A DNA stretch of 32,440 bases from Candidatus Binataceae bacterium (GTDB lineage: Bacteria; Desulfobacterota; Binatia; Binatales; Binataceae): the NCBI GenBank assembly GCA_030037595.1, contig JASHQJ010000476.1, positions 1-32,440 on the forward strand. Reading direction: 5' to 3'. Of this stretch, positions 2,330 to 31,051 are shown one piece after another. A program made the translations under genes and the position numbers. Positions within the stretch are counted from its first letter, which is position 1; every line of letters starts with the position of its first letter. A model generated the notes under the pieces. The model was not told where the DNA came from and did not search any database. It worked only from the letters and a program-made list of their open reading frames with translations.

Positions 2330-3055
2330 ATGGAAGTCGTCTCACAGGAAATTTCGGTACCGAGCGGAGCGGAAAAGATGCCCGCGCATCTGGCCCGGCC
2401 CGCAATCGGAGGCCCATATCCCGCGCTGCTCGTCTTCATGGAAGCCTTCGGGCTGAACGACCATATCCGTAAGATCACCGACCGCTTCGCGGCCGAGGGC
2501 TTCGTCGCGCTAGCGCCGAATCTGTATTTTCGCCAGCCCAACAATGTCGTTGGCTACAACGACCTCCAGGGCGCGTTCCGCCTCATGGGCTCGTTGAACG
2601 ACGATCAGGTGGTGGCCGACATGGGCGCCGCTATCGCGTATCTGAAGACGCAGAGGGAAGTGAAGCCCGCGTTCGGCACTGTGGGATTCTGCATGGGCGG
2701 GCGGATCAGCTTCCTGACCGCATGCCGCAACTCCGACGTAAAAGCGGCGGCGCCCTACTACGGCGGCGGAATGGTCAAGTCGCGTCAGCCCGAAGTGAAG
2801 GCGCCGATCGAATACGTCGAAGGACTAAAGGCGCCCGTGCTCGCGTTCTTCGGCGGCAAGGACGCGTTCATTCCGATCGAGGAAGTGGACACGTTTCGCG
2901 ATGCGCTGCGCAAAGCCGGCAAACCCGCGGAGGTCGTGCTTTACCCCGACGCAGATCACGGGTTTATGTGCGACGAGCGCCCTTCATTTCATCCGACGCA
3001 TTCGAAGGAAGCCTGGGCCAAGACCATCGCGTTTTTCAAGCAACACCTCGGCTGA
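2330..3055 (+). CDS. Dienelactone hydrolase family protein
   Basis: This is a cytoplasmic alpha/beta hydrolase of the dienelactone hydrolase family, 241 residues, the usual length. The triad is visible: the Cys nucleophile in GFCMGGR (C121), an Asp in FFGGKDAFIP (D178) and His in DADHGF (H210). The glutamate that positions the cysteine in true DLH corresponds to E39 in MEAFG. The start is the ATG at 2330, seven bases after GGAGG. The family includes carboxymethylenebutenolidase of the chlorocatechol pathway, but many members are general esterases and no aromatic ring-cleavage genes lie nearby, so the substrate is unknown. A strong Rho-independent terminator follows 32 bases after the stop, so the gene is probably monocistronic. 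Confidence 0.93.
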   Translation: MEVVSQEISVPSGAEKMPAHLARPAIGGPYPALLVFMEAFGLNDHIRKITDRFAAEGFVALAPNLYFRQPNNVVGYNDLQGAFRLMGSLNDDQVVADMGAAIAYLKTQREVKPAFGTVGFCMGGRISFLTACRNSDVKAAAPYYGGGMVKSRQPEVKAPIEYVEGLKAPVLAFFGGKDAFIPIEEVDTFRDALRKAGKPAEVVLYPDADHGFMCDERPSFHPTHSKEAWAKTIAFFKQHLG

Positions 3056-3070
3056 AACGGGCGCCATCGA

Positions 3071-3535
3071 TTGTTACTCGATAGCGCGCGGGCCGGCGCA
3101 CGTCGGCCCGCATTTTTTTGCTTGATCGCGGCACTCCTGCTCGCAGCCGGATGCTACTCGTCGAATTACGATCACGAGATGACCGCGAACCTCCAGCTCA
3201 TCAGCGACATGTGCGATAAGCTCGCCGACTATTGCCGCCACGATTTCAGGATCGGCGACCACGTCGTCACCGCGGAGGAGATGGGCGAGTTCTATTACGC
3301 CTACAACAAGGCGAGTGCGTTCTCGGCCTCGACGCCGCGCGAGACATCGCTCAACTCGCACAAGGACTTCAACAAGATGCTGACGGCGTACGAGAACTTC
3401 GTACACGCCGCGGATCAATACCGGCTTCGATCGAGTTCAGACCCAGCAGCGCTGGCGGTGCTCGAGTCGCAGTGCGACCAGGTGAAGCACATCGCCGGCC
3501 GCGTCGCGCAGGACCTTCACGCCGAAGCGAAATGA
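3071..3535 (+). CDS. Small lipoprotein of unknown function
   Basis: A reading frame of up to 154 residues with a hydrophobic stretch ending in the lipobox LLAAGC (Cys28 when counted from 3071) predicts a lipidated envelope protein. The mature part is about 126 residues, mostly helical and charged, with further cysteines in SDMCDKLADYC and ESQCDQ. I do not recognise the family. The start is doubtful. The TTG at 3071 would give a signal peptide with arginines, but its codons run through the terminator of the upstream gene. A second in-frame TTG at 3122, just after the T-run, leaves a short signal with no basic residues. Neither has a clear Shine-Dalgarno sequence. A degenerate copy of the last 20 or so codons reappears 805 bases downstream, beyond a toxin-antitoxin locus. 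Confidence 0.7.
   Translation: MLLDSARAGARRPAFFCLIAALLLAAGCYSSNYDHEMTANLQLISDMCDKLADYCRHDFRIGDHVVTAEEMGEFYYAYNKASAFSASTPRETSLNSHKDFNKMLTAYENFVHAADQYRLRSSSDPAALAVLESQCDQVKHIAGRVAQDLHAEAK
3088..3119 (+). terminator. Rho-independent terminator after the dienelactone hydrolase gene
   Basis: A perfect 8-bp stem (GCGGGCCG at 3088-3095 with CGGCCCGC at 3104-3111) with an 8-base loop is followed by seven T residues at 3113-3119. It lies inside the upstream part of the reading frame of the next lipoprotein gene if that gene starts at the TTG at 3071. Confidence 0.85.
3477..3535 (+). repeat. Repeat copy 1: 3' end of the lipoprotein gene
   Basis: The last 59 bases of the lipoprotein gene match 4282-4340 at a constant offset of 805 with no gap. 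The core at 3503-3523 is identical over 21 bases. Differences downstream of the core are mostly at third codon positions, and both copies end in TGA in the same frame. Confidence 0.8.
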
Positions 3536-3560
3536 AGCCGCCGCCGCTATTGCGCTTTGT

Positions 3561-3957
3561 TCATGCTGATTTACTCAGTATGTTTCGCGCGAGCCCGCGC
3601 GAGATACGGGTCAACCGATCGTCATTGGTCCAAAGCGCCTCGCATCGGTGATGCTGCGCGCAGGCCAGGTGCAGCGCGTCGGGTGTCTTGAGTCCGCTTC
3701 GCGCCCGAAGATTAGCCGCCTGAGGGTAAACCTGCTCTGGCATCGCAAGCGGAACTAGCAAATCGAACAGTTCACTGAAGACGCGCTCCGATACCTGATC
3801 AGCGCGCTTGATTGGATCAATCAGGCATTCGAGTTTGACCAACGGAGAGATGCGAACTGAGCGCTGCCAGCACGATTCATCGCGCGCCTGACTCTCTCGG
3901 CCCACGATGGATGATTCTCTGCGAGATAAATAACCAGGCAGGAATGAAGATGGATTA
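3561..3957 (-). pseudogene. Broken PIN-domain (VapC-like) toxin
   Basis: Two frames together encode a PIN-domain ribonuclease toxin. The first frame carries the N-terminal beta strand and helix (LIHLHSCLVIYLAENHP), and the second continues from ISPLVKLECL through LKTPDALHLA to WTNDDRL. Three faults are visible. There is no ATG, GTG or TTG at the expected overlap with the antitoxin stop (ATTAATC where ATGATC would be expected). The first catalytic Asp of the usual LDSCLVIYL is His (LHSCLVIYL). A one-base deletion near 3852 splits the frame between QFA and ISP. The later acidic residues (E of LEC, D of TPDA, D of NDD) survive. The toxin is therefore very probably dead while its antitoxin gene upstream is intact. 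Confidence 0.85.
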
Positions 3958-4221
3958 ATCCCACCCAGTCCGCTCCGCGGCGATGGCCGTGTCGATCTCT
4001 TTAGCTGTCCGACGCAGGTAAGGAGGGAGCGGATTTGCCGCAAGCCAATCAAGAATGGGCCGAGCGCTCCCCAAACCGGGTTTATTTTGGAGCCCGAGCG
4101 TTGGGACGAGCCTCGCGACAGGTTCACCGCGGTTCGCGATAATCACTTCCTCACCCGCCAGGGCGGCGTGAATCAATTTGGAGAGGCGATTCTTTGCTTC
4201 CAGTATGTTCACCTTCACCAT
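3955..4221 (-). CDS. Phd/YefM-type antitoxin
   Basis: This 88-residue protein is a type II antitoxin of the Phd/YefM fold that binds DNA through its N-terminus and neutralises a PIN toxin through its C-terminus. The N-terminal motif VNILEAKNRLSKLIHAA, then GEEVIIANRGEPVARLVP (about residues 23-40), is diagnostic. The C-terminal part ends in DWLAANPLPPYLRRTAKEID and should be the toxin-binding arm. The ATG is at 4221 and the stop TAA overlaps the start region of the broken toxin. Such antitoxins normally repress their own promoter, which here would lie in 4222-4262. The frame is intact although the toxin is ruined, so it may act only as a DNA-binding remnant or protect against related toxins. 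Confidence 0.88.
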   Translation of the reverse strand: MVKVNILEAKNRLSKLIHAALAGEEVIIANRGEPVARLVPTLGLQNKPGLGSARPILDWLAANPLPPYLRRTAKEIDTAIAAERTGWD

Positions 4222-10845: not shown

Positions 10846-12540
10846 TTGAAGAGGCATATGTTGCTCGGCGATTTCCTGGTTGCCTACCTGCGCAAGATCG
10901 GCACTACGCACGTCTTCGGCATCCCGGGTGACCTGGCACTGAAGCTCTTCTTCGCGCTCGGCCGTAAGCACGGCCTCAAGATCATCACCCTCTCCCACGA
11001 GCCCGGCGTCGGATTCGCGGCCGACGGCTACGCGCGGGCCACAGGCAAGATCGGTGTCGTATGCGTCACCTACGGCGCGGGCGGCCACAACATGGTGAAC
11101 CCCGTCGCCGGTTCCTTCTCCGAGCGCGTGCCGCTACTGATTTTCTCTGGCGGCCCCGGTGAAGAGGAGCGCAAGCTCGGCACGCTCATCCATCACCAGG
11201 CGCGCGAGATCGAATCGCAGCATCGCATCTACAACGAAGTCACTTGCGCCTCCGCCGTGCTCACTGACCCCCGCTCCGCCGCGCAGGAGCTGCATCGCGT
11301 CGTCACGACCATCTGGGCCGAGCAGCGCCCCGGCTATATCGAGATTCATCGCGACATGGTCGGCCGTCAGATCGAGGTTCCCGAGGAACTCATCGAATGG
11401 GACGGCCATCTGCATTTTCAGGAGTCGGACGCGCGCAAGGTTGATGAGGCCGCAAACGAGACCGCTGCGATGTTCAACGAAAGCCGCAAGCCGGTCCTCA
11501 TCGCGGGCATCGAGATTCATCGCTACAAGGTCTCGCGCGAACTGGTCGAGCTGGCGGAGAAGATGGGCGCACCGGTGTTCACGACCGTTCTCGGCAAGGG
11601 CGCCTTTCCGATGAATCATCCGCTCTACATGGGCGTGCATATCGGGCCGATCAGCCCGCCTTCAATCGTCGCGCGCATGGACGAGGCCGACTTCGTGCTC
11701 AACCTCGGATGCCTCAAGACCGACATGAATTTCGGCAACCGGCCACCGCGTGTGATCCAGGAGCGGACGGTGTGGTCGGTCGATCGCAAGGTGGACGTCA
11801 AGTTTCACACCTACACCGACGTCGCCGTGCGCGATTTCGTCCGCGCGCTGCTGCGCGAAAAAATCCGCCGCCACAGCGAGCGCGTGCAATACGCCGACAA
11901 CCTGCGCGAGATCGCCACGCGCGACGGCAAACCGATCAAGGTCGGCCAGATTCTCGCCACTGTGAACCAGTTTCTCGCCGACCATCATGACTACCTGGTC
12001 GTGGCCGAGTCCGGCGACATGCTGTTCGGTGGACTCGACGTGCGCGTGCCGCATTCGAGCGCATACCTGGCGCAGGGCTTTTACGCCTCGATGGGATTCG
12101 CCGTGCCGGCCGCGATCGGCGCGCAGCTCGGCGGCGGTCTTCGTCCCCTGGTGTTATGTGGCGACGGCGGCTTTCAGATGACTGGTCCCGAGATCGCGCA
12201 GGCGCCGGCCAAGGGCGTCAATCCGATCGTGATCGTGATCAACAACGGCGGATGGGGCATCTTTCGCCCGATCGCCGAGCGCGCCGACCTGCTCGAAATT
12301 CCACCTTGGCCCTACGCCAAGCTCGCGCGCGCCTGGGGCGGCGCGGGATTCGAGGTCTATGACGAGCACGAGCTCGCGCGCGCGCTCGAGGCCGCGCATG
12401 GCGGCAAATCGTTCGCCATCATCGACGTCCGCGTCGAGCGCGACGACCTCTCGCCGATCACGGTCAAGTACATCAAGGCCGCGGCCAAGCGTTCTCAGGC
12501 GCCGGTCGAGAAATCCGCGCGCACCAACCATCGGTCATGA
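10846..12540 (+). CDS. Thiamine diphosphate-dependent 2-oxo acid decarboxylase-like enzyme
   Basis: A 564-residue ThDP enzyme with all three domains. The Pyr domain has the catalytic Glu in LSHEPGVGFAADGYARATG (E52). The central domain runs from about 185 to 350. The PP domain carries the cofactor motif GDGGFQMTGPEI (439-450) ending in NNGGWG (NN at 466-467). LAQGFYASMGFAVPAAIGA precedes the motif, as in pyruvate, indolepyruvate and benzoylformate decarboxylases and acetolactate synthase. Length and motif spacing fit a cytoplasmic, homomeric decarboxylase or ligase. The TTG at 10846 is chosen because GGAGG lies eight bases upstream; the ATG at 10858 is the alternative. The stop overlaps the start of the acyl-CoA synthetase (ATGA), so the two are translationally coupled. 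The substrate is not determined. Confidence 0.9.
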   Translation: MKRHMLLGDFLVAYLRKIGTTHVFGIPGDLALKLFFALGRKHGLKIITLSHEPGVGFAADGYARATGKIGVVCVTYGAGGHNMVNPVAGSFSERVPLLIFSGGPGEEERKLGTLIHHQAREIESQHRIYNEVTCASAVLTDPRSAAQELHRVVTTIWAEQRPGYIEIHRDMVGRQIEVPEELIEWDGHLHFQESDARKVDEAANETAAMFNESRKPVLIAGIEIHRYKVSRELVELAEKMGAPVFTTVLGKGAFPMNHPLYMGVHIGPISPPSIVARMDEADFVLNLGCLKTDMNFGNRPPRVIQERTVWSVDRKVDVKFHTYTDVAVRDFVRALLREKIRRHSERVQYADNLREIATRDGKPIKVGQILATVNQFLADHHDYLVVAESGDMLFGGLDVRVPHSSAYLAQGFYASMGFAVPAAIGAQLGGGLRPLVLCGDGGFQMTGPEIAQAPAKGVNPIVIVINNGGWGIFRPIAERADLLEIPPWPYAKLARAWGGAGFEVYDEHELARALEAAHGGKSFAIIDVRVERDDLSPITVKYIKAAAKRSQAPVEKSARTNHRS

Positions 12541-26891: not shown

Positions 26892-28187
26892 TTATCGAGC
26901 CACGCCCGACTGCTTGTTAACTGCCGCTGCCGCCGCCGCAGCGACTGACCTCTCCGAAATCGTCCCTGGGTCGATAAACCAACCCTCGTATTCGTCGCCC
27001 TCTACTCCCGGCATGTAGGACACCGAGGAAAATCCGCTCTGGAGGTCTTCATCGACGATCGCTGTCGTGAAGATTCGCTTGAATGGATACACCGCCTGCT
27101 GAGCTCCTGGCAGAGCGCGGTCTCGGTAGCCATGAAAAAGCACCATTGTTTTCCACACCTGGCCCCGCTGATCGGATTGATCGGAGGCCGTAATGAACCA
27201 CCCTTCGGCATCGACGTAGAGGGTGCGCTTCACGACATCGCGGCCATGCGGATGGAATTTCGGTATGGCCTCGATCACATAGATCGTGCGCATCTCCCAA
27301 TTCTCGGGACACACGGTGCGCCCGTCGTCGAAAGGACAGTGGCGCGCGGGCGAGCTTTCGGCGTGCACGCTCGCCAGCATCGAGGAGATACCCAGCAGGC
27401 GATAGTCAAAGTTTTCAATCTTGGCCGCAAACCCAAAATAGGAATCGGGATCGAGAGTGAAAGGACCAATTGTATCGGACATCATGCCGGCACTAACTCT
27501 GCCCAAGCCGAAGTACCAGGTATCGTCCTCCCGCGCCGGGTCGATGTAGCGGTATCGCGTCAGCGTCTGGCCATGAGACGTCGAAGGCTCGATGATCGGG
27601 CCTTCGATAAAGCGGTAGCGAATTCCCGTCTTGGCGGCGTTCGGATCCGTTGGAATCGGCGGCACTTCGGTGCGGCCGATATTGTTGTACCAGGTGATGT
27701 GATCGACCATCGAATGAAATGCCTCGGCCGGAAATAGCCAGTGTGCAGCGCTACCCGCCGGACCAAGATCGCGATAGCTGCTCAGCTCGGGCTTCCGAAT
27801 CTCGACGATATCCGCGAATTGCGGCCCGTAGCTGAAGTTCCACATCACCTTGGTAGCGGCTTGAGGATCATTCGGATCGATGAAAGGAAACGGCAGGCCC
27901 GCGACGTAATTCTCCAGTTCGCCTCGCTCATTGAGCCTGACTTGTGCAGCGTATTTCTCGGTCGCGGATTTATAGGGCGGCGGCCAATCGATTCGCTCGG
28001 TGGGAACGACTTTGATCCGCATCCCTTGCCGCACCAGGGCCAGGTTCCCGGGGCTTAGGAGGTCAGCGACACTGTCGGCCTTCTCAGGAGTGATTAGTGT
28101 TCCCGGCTGAACAATGCCGGCGATGCAAGGTGAAGTGATTATCAGCAGCGAGAGAACGGCAGCCGCGACTCGGGTTAGGACCTTCAT
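26892..28187 (-). CDS. DUF1329 exported protein
   Basis: A 431-residue protein with a signal peptide (residues 1-23, ending PCIAG) and the DUF1329 domain over most of its length. Visible family features are LLSPGNLALVRQGMRIKV near the start, then PFPFIDPNDPQAATKVMWNF (in outline), and later the RKTLY-like VVKRTLYVDAEGWF. DUF1329 proteins are periplasmic or outer-membrane associated, are often encoded near RND/MMPL exporters, and have no settled function. The ATG at 28187 follows GGAGGAA. The Ala-rich tail (VAAAAAAAVNKQ) is atypical. No exporter gene is adjacent here. It diverges from a small secreted protein. Confidence 0.9.
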   Translation of the reverse strand: MKVLTRVAAAVLSLLIITSPCIAGIVQPGTLITPEKADSVADLLSPGNLALVRQGMRIKVVPTERIDWPPPYKSATEKYAAQVRLNERGELENYVAGLPFPFIDPNDPQAATKVMWNFSYGPQFADIVEIRKPELSSYRDLGPAGSAAHWLFPAEAFHSMVDHITWYNNIGRTEVPPIPTDPNAAKTGIRYRFIEGPIIEPSTSHGQTLTRYRYIDPAREDDTWYFGLGRVSAGMMSDTIGPFTLDPDSYFGFAAKIENFDYRLLGISSMLASVHAESSPARHCPFDDGRTVCPENWEMRTIYVIEAIPKFHPHGRDVVKRTLYVDAEGWFITASDQSDQRGQVWKTMVLFHGYRDRALPGAQQAVYPFKRIFTTAIVDEDLQSGFSSVSYMPGVEGDEYEGWFIDPGTISERSVAAAAAAAVNKQSGVAR

Positions 28188-28353: not shown

Positions 28354-28860
28354 ATGCTGAGAGTGACGTCGATCGTTCTTTTCTGGATGAGCGAGTTGTT
28401 CTTTGCCCCTGGCGCAAGTGCGCAACAGATTTCGTTCAACAATGCTGTGATTCAGGGCGCATACAAATGCAATCTGACCGCGTACGGCCTTCCGAGCAAA
28501 GCCTCAGATCCTTTTCCAGTCACGGCGTTGGGGGACATTACCGGTGTGGCGGACGGACGCGGAAAGTGGACCAGCGGCGAATGGCATCACTCCATTGATG
28601 CGCCGGGTATGCACGCCAACTGTCATCTAACCATGATCTCCGGCACCTATTCGGTACGACCAAACGGCACGGGAACGGACATCACCAAATGGCGGCTGGT
28701 GAAAGGCGACTCGGCGCCCAACTGTCTCATGTACTTTCCCGATGCCGCCGAGACACCTACAACTGAGTCAGCGCTTATCGTCCGAGATCCGTCGGGTAAG
28801 ATGTTCTACTCTACCAGCATCAATCCCTTCGCAGTGCTTGTCACCGCGTGCCAGAAGTAA
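28354..28860 (+). CDS. Secreted small protein of unknown function
   Basis: A 168-residue protein with a signal peptide (hydrophobic to residue 22, cleavage expected after PGASA) and a mature part of about 145 residues dominated by short beta strands, with Gly/Thr/Asp-rich turns (ALGDITGVADGRGKWTSG) and Cys in YKCN, NCHL, NCLM and TACQK that may form disulfides. I do not recognise the family, though the ADGRGKWTSG type of turn recurs in exported beta-rich proteins. The ATG at 28354 follows GAGGA. The stop overlaps the start of the next gene by 13 bases, so the two are translationally coupled and probably work in the same compartment. Confidence 0.7.
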   Translation: MLRVTSIVLFWMSELFFAPGASAQQISFNNAVIQGAYKCNLTAYGLPSKASDPFPVTALGDITGVADGRGKWTSGEWHHSIDAPGMHANCHLTMISGTYSVRPNGTGTDITKWRLVKGDSAPNCLMYFPDAAETPTTESALIVRDPSGKMFYSTSINPFAVLVTACQK

Positions 28861-30101
28861 GTCGATTTTTGGCGAGACACATTCGAGCGCTTTCGATCTC
28901 GCTCGCGCTCGCGACACTTTTCGTCGCTACCGGCGGCGTAACGATCCAGCAGTACAGCGCCCTCAAGGCCACAACGGACAAGACCATCGAGCAGCACATC
29001 AGAGCGGTCGAAAACGGTCTTCTTCCGCCTGCCTCGACCGGAGAGGAACAAAAGTGGAGCCTCGCGGAGCGAATGGCTTTCTACAAGGTTCCCGCAGTGA
29101 GCGTCGCCGTGATCAACAACTATGAGATCGAGTGGGCGAAGGCGTGGGGCGTTACCGAGCCCGGCGGCGCGACGGCTGCCTCGCCCGATACGTTGTTTCA
29201 GACGGCGCAGATCAGCGAATCGGTCGGCGCAATGGCCGTGATGCATCTGGTCGAACAAGGCAAGCTCAACCTCGATGCGAACGTCAACGACTACCTGAAG
29301 AGCTGGAAGGTTCCGGAGAACGAGTTCACACGCGTCAAAGCCGTCACCTTGCGTGAATTGCTAAGCCATAACGCAGCGACGACGATCGCCGGTTTTCCCG
29401 GATACAATGTTAGGGTCGAGCGGCCGTCGCTTGCGGAGATTTTGCGTGGCATCCCACCGTCAAGCACTGGCGCAGTGGAGGTTGCAGGCGTTCCCGGAAG
29501 CAAGTGGCAATACTCAGGCGGCGGATTCGAAATCATTCAACAAGTGCTCGAAGACGTTACCGGCGAGTCTTTTCCGCAATTGATGCAGGCCACTGTCCTC
29601 GCGCCGCTGGCTATGACGCACAGCTATTACGCTCAACCGCTGCCCGCTTCGCTCGAAGCTAACGCCGCAGTTGGCACCTTCGCCGACGGTCTGGCAGTCC
29701 CGGGCAGATGGCATGTCTATCCGGAGCTTATGGAAGCGGGCCTCTGGACGACGCCATCAGACTTAGCGCGATTCGCAATTGCGCTCATGAATGCGACACG
29801 CGGTGTGAGTAATCCTGTCGCCTCCGCGGCAGGAACTCTACAATTGCTCCGTCCTGAGTTGAGCACCGACGCTCCCGAATTTTCCCAGAGCGGTCTTGGA
29901 ATCTTCGTGCATGGCACCGGCGACAGCGCTCGATTCTTTCATGGAGGCTTGAACGAGGGGTATCAGAGCCAACTGCTAGGATATGACTCAGGTCATGGCG
30001 TCGTCATCATGACGAACTCCGACAACGGCGTGCGTGTCGCGGGTGAGATTATCCGCGCCGTCGAGCGTGAGTACGGCTGGCAGGGTTCAATGCCATGGTG
30101 A
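28848..30101 (+). CDS. Beta-lactamase-fold (class C/penicillin-binding) protein lacking the SxxK pair
   Basis: A 417-residue exported or membrane-anchored protein (hydrophobic segment 14-31) of the serine beta-lactamase-like family. The fold is well preserved: VPAVSVAVINNYEIEWAKAWG, then DANVNDYLKSW, LRELLSH, WQYSGGGFEIIQQVLEDVTG (Y222 of the YSG motif) and FFHGGLNEGYQS (HGG at 365-367). At the catalytic helix, where relatives read FQAASISKPV, this protein reads FQTAQISESV (Q121, E124). The nucleophilic Ser and general-base Lys are thus both replaced, so it cannot act by the usual acyl-enzyme route. A binding, sensing or scaffold role is more likely. The GTG at 28848 overlaps the upstream stop. 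Confidence 0.88.
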   Translation: MPEVSRFLARHIRALSISLALATLFVATGGVTIQQYSALKATTDKTIEQHIRAVENGLLPPASTGEEQKWSLAERMAFYKVPAVSVAVINNYEIEWAKAWGVTEPGGATAASPDTLFQTAQISESVGAMAVMHLVEQGKLNLDANVNDYLKSWKVPENEFTRVKAVTLRELLSHNAATTIAGFPGYNVRVERPSLAEILRGIPPSSTGAVEVAGVPGSKWQYSGGGFEIIQQVLEDVTGESFPQLMQATVLAPLAMTHSYYAQPLPASLEANAAVGTFADGLAVPGRWHVYPELMEAGLWTTPSDLARFAIALMNATRGVSNPVASAAGTLQLLRPELSTDAPEFSQSGLGIFVHGTGDSARFFHGGLNEGYQSQLLGYDSGHGVVIMTNSDNGVRVAGEIIRAVEREYGWQGSMPW

Positions 30102-30108
30102 AACTGCG

Positions 30109-30555
30109 TCAATTGTGTCGATCACAGGCGGTGATATCGTCCTGGATCTGACAAAATTGCGCGCGAGCCTTTCCCGCGGATGCCTGGCAATGAGCCATCG
30201 CCTGTCTGGTGGCGGTCGCCACGTCGGGTCCGAGGCCCCAACCAAAGCCTGGTGTGCCAACCTTGGGATCAAATGCAGCCGCGTAACACTTCCGCATGAA
30301 CGTCCGCACGATTCTGCATCGCGCTGCCGCTTTCCGGACGTCGGGTTGCGAACGACATTTCCTCAGCGCTTCCGCGACTGCGTCTTCGCGGTTTGGATTG
30401 TTAAAGCTTCCGCCGATTGCAACTCCATCCGCCACGACATTGCCAGTCGAGCCGATGGCCAGAGCGCCCATGGCCAAGACGCGAGTCGAAAATGCGATCA
30501 GTACCGCGAGACCGAAGAGTGAGACGAAGATGAATTTTTCTCTATGGCTTCGCAT
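30109..30555 (-). CDS. DUF4189-like small secreted cysteine-rich protein
   Basis: A 148-residue protein with a signal peptide (FIFVSLFGLAVLIAFSTRVLA, cleavage near residue 28). The mature domain begins MGALAIGSTGN, and six cysteines (RKCRSQ, ARCRIV, RKCYAA, AHCQAS, QFCQIQ, TACDRH) are placed to form disulfides. The GAxAIG opening, the repeated AxxxALxxC pattern and the GFGWG turn resemble DUF4189, a family of exported proteins without known function. The start overlaps the end of the NTF2-like gene upstream by 14 bases. It converges on the beta-lactamase-fold gene with only seven bases between them, too few for a terminator. Confidence 0.7.
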   Translation of the reverse strand: MRSHREKFIFVSLFGLAVLIAFSTRVLAMGALAIGSTGNVVADGVAIGGSFNNPNREDAVAEALRKCRSQPDVRKAAARCRIVRTFMRKCYAAAFDPKVGTPGFGWGLGPDVATATRQAMAHCQASAGKARAQFCQIQDDITACDRHN

Positions 30556-31051
30556 TCATGACTGCCTTGCCGGTGGCTGGATCGAATGGCACTGAGAAGT
30601 GCTCATGCCAGACGAGCCACTTCCCTCCCTCCTTTCTGTCGATCTGTGTGTAGCGGCTGGTTTGTGTATGCATGATGCCTTTCGAGTCGATCCATTTTCC
30701 CCTGATGATGCATCGCATGACGGCGAGGTCGCCGCTCGTCACGATGTCGATAGCTTCCATGCGAGCGTGAAAGTCCGGCATCGATTTGATCTCGCCATTG
30801 GCCTTGCTCAGGACCGCTTTATTCATCTGAAAGGGGATGGTGTCTTCGAAAAAGATCGCGTCGGGATCGTCGGAGTAGAAGGCCATCACAGCACTTGGAT
30901 CTCTCTTGTTGAAGGCAGCCATGATCTGCTGGTTCATCGCGGCGATTTGAGCTTTGTCACTGTCACTCGATGCCCGGGCGTTGGAAACAGGCACGACTAC
31001 CAAAGTGACCAGGGCGAATACCGGTATAAGAGTGCGCAGCGTTGTTGTCAT
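30542..31051 (-). CDS. Exported NTF2-like (SnoaL/DUF4440) protein
   Basis: A 169-residue protein with a signal peptide (residues 1-27, ending VSNARA) and an NTF2-like domain: AMNQQIMAAFNKRDPSAVMAFYSDD (in outline), then FHARMEAIDIVTSGDLAVMRC and RYTQIDRKEGGKWLVWHEHFS. This is the usual DUF4440/SnoaL_3 pattern of a calcium/calmodulin kinase II association-like cone. An exported version suggests a binding or isomerase role in the periplasm. It precedes and overlaps the DUF4189-like gene, so both are made together. No substrate can be inferred. Confidence 0.85.
   Translation of the reverse strand: MTTTLRTLIPVFALVTLVVVPVSNARASSDSDKAQIAAMNQQIMAAFNKRDPSAVMAFYSDDPDAIFFEDTIPFQMNKAVLSKANGEIKSMPDFHARMEAIDIVTSGDLAVMRCIIRGKWIDSKGIMHTQTSRYTQIDRKEGGKWLVWHEHFSVPFDPATGKAVMNAKP

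Follow-up and report, generated by a model that had tools for sequence, protein, structure and literature searches.

A beta-lactamase-fold protein of the S12 family with both catalytic residues replaced, a likely pseudoenzyme, in a Candidatus Binataceae bacterium

Proteins of the S12 family work through an acyl-enzyme, the formation of which needs a serine nucleophile and a lysine base. What is to be made of a gene that encodes the S12, or class C beta-lactamase, fold with neither residue in place? The gene in question lies in a stretch of 32,440 nucleotides (contig JASHQJ010000476.1 of assembly GCA_030037595.1), hereafter the window. A preliminary description of the sequence had taken its product to be a maintained pseudoenzyme, perhaps partnered by the secreted protein encoded just upstream. 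MEROPS includes non-peptidase homologues in S12, and inactive members of the penicillin-binding/beta-lactamase fold have been little studied. This case offers a testable route to the role of the fold without cutting: both residues are replaced, there is evidence of past selection on the protein, a sister genome has deleted the gene, and the barrel protein encoded beside it has a paralogue fused to an S12 domain. The locus contains the following features.

26892..28187, minus strand: divergent gene for a DUF1329 (PF07044) exported protein, by Pfam match; its 5' part is lost in the sister genome
27103..29867, no strand: stretch missing from the sister genome G001, by blastn synteny
28354..28860, plus strand: upstream secreted protein of 168 aa, with a signal peptide by inspection and an eight-stranded barrel in the model
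28848..30101, plus strand: S12/class C beta-lactamase-fold gene, 417 aa, GTG start, PF00144 match
28881..28931, plus strand: hydrophobic N-terminal segment of the S12 protein (roughly residues 12-28), either a signal anchor or a signal peptide, read from the sequence; helix 3-28 in the model
29208..29219, plus strand: Gln121-Ile-Ser-Glu124 (CAG ATC AGC GAA), at the site of the catalytic Ser-x-x-Lys, by alignments
29376..29378, plus strand: Ala177 in place of a Gly found in 80/80 relatives, by alignment
29511..29519, plus strand: Tyr222-Ser-Gly, the second motif, kept, by alignments
29940..29948, plus strand: His365-Gly-Gly, the third motif, kept, by alignments
30109-30555, minus strand: DUF4189 secreted protein, kept in the sister genome, with a fairly high dN/dS
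30542-31051, minus strand: SnoaL-like protein, for which blastn gave no match at the corresponding position of the sister genome

To place the protein, we compared it with the 'LFQAASISKPVAA...YSGGG...HGG' subfamily of PF00144 / MEROPS S12, with which it shares the fold, the Tyr and His-Gly motifs, roughly 35-50% identity and long conserved stretches (WKVPENEF, GFPGY, WHxYPE, and GLWTTPSDLARF). Members of this subfamily occur in Acidobacteriota, Bacteroidota, Pseudomonadota, and other hosts, where they are annotated as "serine hydrolase." The S12 protein differs from them in having Gln and Glu for Ser and Lys, in the G177A change, in the lack of a C-terminal DUF3471 or TPR region, and in the secreted barrel gene ahead of it. 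When DTLFQTAQISESVGAMA is aligned with ETLFQAGSISKPVAAMA, which requires no gap, Q121 and E124 fall on the family Ser and Lys. Both family residues were present at the site in 71 of 80 relatives from GTDB, in every one of 30 Acidobacteriota loci retrieved by a second search (L136-L165, four of which repeat loci already among the 80), and in the five best plasmid matches (5/5). Altogether, 102 of the 111 distinct relatives inspected, about 35-50% identical to the S12 protein, carry SxxK; the nine exceptions all belong to one Bacteroidota clade and read TxxM or AxxM. No copy with QxxE was found in any of these three sets (GTDB, Acidobacteriota, and plasmid), and the searches returned no homologue more than about 50% identical to the protein. 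Fourteen of the other 15 PF00144 proteins in the same genome do not share its double replacement.

Sequencing error was considered and rejected as the source of the replacement. Turning any Ser codon into CAG takes at least two base changes and turning a Lys codon into GAA takes one, so that a single-base error is excluded, and no 90%-identical relative with SxxK turned up. A second candidate, another Ser-Lys pair taking over the site, was rejected as well: the sole S-x-x-K string of the protein (S37-A-L-K40) belongs to the anchor region at the N terminus, and the domain itself contains no other Ser-Lys pair. The double replacement in the preliminary description was thus borne out, as was the retention of YSG at 222 and HGG at 365, found as in the subfamily. 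The protein lacks the Ser-x-x-Lys dyad of an active serine hydrolase and keeps the second and third motifs. Judged by its sequence, ordinary S12 chemistry is excluded. With nucleophile and base gone, no acyl-enzyme would form, and the protein would therefore neither hydrolyze penicillin-like compounds nor be acylated by them; we infer that it is inactive.

Apart from the active site, the protein appears sound. Its frame proved undamaged, with 417 codons read through without an internal stop in the ORF translation; a TTG at 28869 is an alternative start that would retain the membrane anchor. The PF00144 score was 158 bits against a Pfam cut-off of 27. An AlphaFold2 model built from 44 sequences (mean pLDDT, 90.6; pTM, 0.87) predicts the three-dimensional fold of the S12 family. 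Using VIA-align, we obtained a Z of 38 over 333 residues with both the IS11 esterase (7SPN) and Pab87 of Pyrococcus abyssi (2QMI), 36 with human LACTB (7V21), and 34-35 with class C beta-lactamases; IS11 and Pab87 are also the nearest solved structures by sequence. IS11, Pab87, and LACTB are active Ser-x-x-Lys enzymes; their fold matches that of the S12 protein along more than 330 residues (Z, 36-38), at 20-25% identity. Catalytic residues lost in the alignments and fold kept in prediction is the combination that characterizes a pseudoenzyme. The hydrophobic N-terminal segment suggests that the protein is exported and probably membrane-anchored. A scan for promoters and terminators found none.

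The S12 protein keeps 70 of 79 family-conserved positions, and the nucleophile and base are two of its nine departures, which points to a specific catalytic loss in a constrained protein. Intact relatives with comparable branch lengths depart at 12 of 80 (L083) and 9 of 80 (L089) positions. Further changes where intact relatives are at least 90% conserved are Y100W, A119T, L132M, K165A, N206S, and F372Y. Remodelling of the active-site surface had been proposed from LLSHNAATT, and this held for one residue: Ala177 is a real departure, but N175 and T178 are also seen in intact relatives (LLSHNAG in L055 and L087, HTAGTT in L060). Conservation of overall length applied to the catalytic domain but not to the whole protein, since 65 of the 80 relatives have 57-219 extra residues (24 in L030) C-terminal to the domain. 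Those examples that were typed proved to be DUF3471 or TPR. The S12 protein has no such extension.

Since the fold survives, together with the pocket walls formed by Tyr and HGG and the majority of family-conserved positions, a non-covalent role is the likeliest. We consider it probable, with room for doubt, that the gene encodes an exported, probably membrane-anchored pseudoenzyme with such a role, possibly exerted together with the upstream barrel protein. The folded domain would be held at the membrane, facing the periplasm or the outside, its pocket open and lined by Tyr222 and HGG. This pocket may bind an ester, a peptide, or a lipid-like ligand non-covalently; alternatively, the protein could be a structural or regulatory (scaffold) subunit in the envelope. 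As a hypothesis, the barrel protein could stand in, in trans, for the accessory C-terminal extension that most relatives carry in cis and the S12 protein lacks.

How far the barrel protein belongs to this picture depends on what joins the two genes. They run in the same direction and overlap by 13 nt, and the barrel protein carries a signal peptide that, by inspection, ends in APGASA and is followed by QQ. Its model, built from five sequences, shows eight strands at moderate confidence (pLDDT, 73). Searches with the protein gave no match in Pfam, NCBIfam, or PDB sequences and no relatives in viral contigs, while Foldseek with the model returned nothing under an E value of 1e-3; the best rows (Cap15, ToxS, and de novo barrels) were weak, and therefore no function was read from the fold. 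Just one close relative was found, at 45%: the domain at the C terminus of a second S12 protein encoded by the same genome (L133:5349-7712). Besides this barrel-like domain, that 788-codon frame encodes a hydrophobic segment at the N terminus, a pair of repeated beta-rich domains, and an S12 domain whose SITK is intact. This fusion links the barrel to the S12 domain. On the other hand, the barrel gene was absent (E 0.001) from 37 named genomes searched, all of which hold relatives of the S12 gene, it is rare in its own phylum, and no relative of the S12 gene with a barrel neighbor was found outside this genome. The two may be unrelated neighbors, the S12 protein being a stand-alone pseudoenzyme and the barrel belonging elsewhere. 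That reading is compatible with the pseudoenzyme claim, and we give it a little under an even chance; the overlap in one direction, the fusion of the barrel paralogue, and the removal of both genes by a single deletion in the sister genome speak against it. Partnership, as first suggested from a presumed translational coupling of the genes, is plausible but unproven.

The divergent DUF1329 gene on the other side of the barrel gene is one of 18 in this genome that match PF07044, an unusual expansion. An S12 gene lies next to a pair of DUF1329 genes on contig C70 too, an arrangement that the sister genome seems to share on C174.

Maintenance of the gene by selection is a further mark of a pseudoenzyme. 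Just one more genome represents the genus, G001, and it aligns colinearly with the window, the nucleotide identity being about 79-86%. There, a 2.8-kb deletion has fused what is left of two divergent genes, 207 bp from the 3' end of the DUF1329 gene and 235 bp from that of the S12 gene (at about 11268-11711 on the reverse complement of L132, G001:C40:15000-32000). One event thus took the barrel gene and the 5' part of the DUF1329 gene together with the S12 module, and the module is therefore dispensable in that genome. The S12 remnant, which covers residue 341 onward and so lies downstream of the QxxE motif, has a frameshift and an internal stop. Over the 75 codons compared, the two copies differ at 7, 8, and 33 sites in codon positions 1, 2, and 3, respectively (third position versus the rest, Fisher P = 1.9e-8). 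Over these codons, dN/dS was 0.11 (NG86) or 0.21 (YN00), which is below the adjacent DUF4189 gene (0.33-0.42) and above housekeeping-type neighbors, although one of the two copies compared, that in G001, is broken and free to drift. The codon pattern suggests past purifying selection and a late loss in G001. Purifying selection through most of the divergence is supported, on evidence from the C-terminal part of the protein, without QxxE.

The main rival to a specific catalytic loss is general decay, in which catalysis was lost by drift under relaxed selection and the intact frame marks a recent stage of a gene on its way out. In favor of decay, all that G001 keeps of the gene is its 3' end, frameshifted and interrupted by a stop, and decay would also fit the long terminal branch of the S12 protein (0.99 versus a median of 0.22, its position in the tree being unsure), the absence of the subfamily from 395 genomes of the phylum, and the replacement, beyond the motif, of three conserved residues (Gly, Asn, and Lys). 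It fits less well with 417 codons without a stop, with divergence from the remnant dominated by third positions, and with the large majority of conserved positions kept; at least three base changes falling in exactly two catalytic codons are also unlike early random decay. We regard decay as unlikely, though it deserves to be taken seriously. The maintenance originally proposed thus draws support from the codon pattern and the conserved positions, and is weakened by the deletion in the sister species.

The subfamily elsewhere bears on where the gene came from and on whether dead members can persist. The best natural relatives, 44-50% identical, come from Acidobacteriota, Aminicenantes, Undibacterium, and others, whereas the 395 genomes of its own phylum yielded no subfamily member except a distant 31% match (L135); horizontal arrival of the gene is therefore plausible. 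The nine Bacteroidota proteins without Ser and Lys (L079, L080, L082, L088, and L090-L094; match at about 3001-4200 of each locus) come from Aquimarina, Psychroserpens, Dokdonia, and Cyclobacteriaceae. They lack Ser, Lys, and Tyr, reading STIGM/ISAGG or AATSM/FAYAS, and keep HHG. Like the S12 protein, they are without the dyad and appear maintained; unlike it, they have lost the Tyr, form a separate clade, and retain an extended C-terminal region that contains TPR-like repeats. In the tree, they form a single clade (support, 100/100) nested among intact Bacteroidota proteins. Common descent with the S12 protein, which does not group with them, was not supported, and the two catalytic losses are best read as independent because the one clade is nested among intact proteins and the S12 protein lies outside it. 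Pairs within the clade gave dN/dS values of 0.15-0.21, which indicates that dead members can be kept, and the nine look like maintained pseudoenzymes. This second, independent clade suggests repeated loss within one subfamily. Two of these loci (L080 and L082) also hold a second homologue, close to L088, in tandem downstream.

A re-equipped enzyme is improbable. In it, Glu124, Tyr222, and Gln121 would form a new site at which water (or a metal) is activated, and hydrolysis would proceed directly, with no acyl-enzyme. In its favor, the pocket-lining Tyr and HGG are kept, and Lys and Ser have given way to a carboxylate and an amide, either of which could be functional. Against it, the literature searched gave no precedent, and N206, K165, and G177 have changed as well. 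About as improbable is hydrolysis or transfer by a Gln-Glu pair with Tyr222, without a serine nucleophile, in a class C beta-lactamase fold.

For the pseudoenzyme reading, the nearest described parallel is in another class. The "inactive beta-lactamase group" of the class A fold, represented by 5IHV of Burkholderia ambifaria, has both nucleophile and base replaced (PMC12073871). As in the S12 protein, the fold is kept; the differences are that 5IHV is class A rather than S12/class C and has Gly47 and Ala50 at these places, and its function is likewise unassigned (PMC12073871). We found no paper that directly matched an S12/class C-type pseudoenzyme in the literature searched, coverage of which was incomplete. 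Double-replacement members are thus already known in class A, and the S12/class C type is undescribed in the papers found.

The genome itself may hold another case. One of its S12 proteins (L009:1480-2610, G000:C48) reads FDLSLLTK, with Leu at the nucleophile position and Ser one place earlier, where relatives of this type presumably read FDLASxTK. By its sequence, this may be another S12 protein that is inactive or has its motif shifted in register. Its gene sits between LdcA-like and Mpl-like genes, recognized by sequence as belonging to peptidoglycan recycling.
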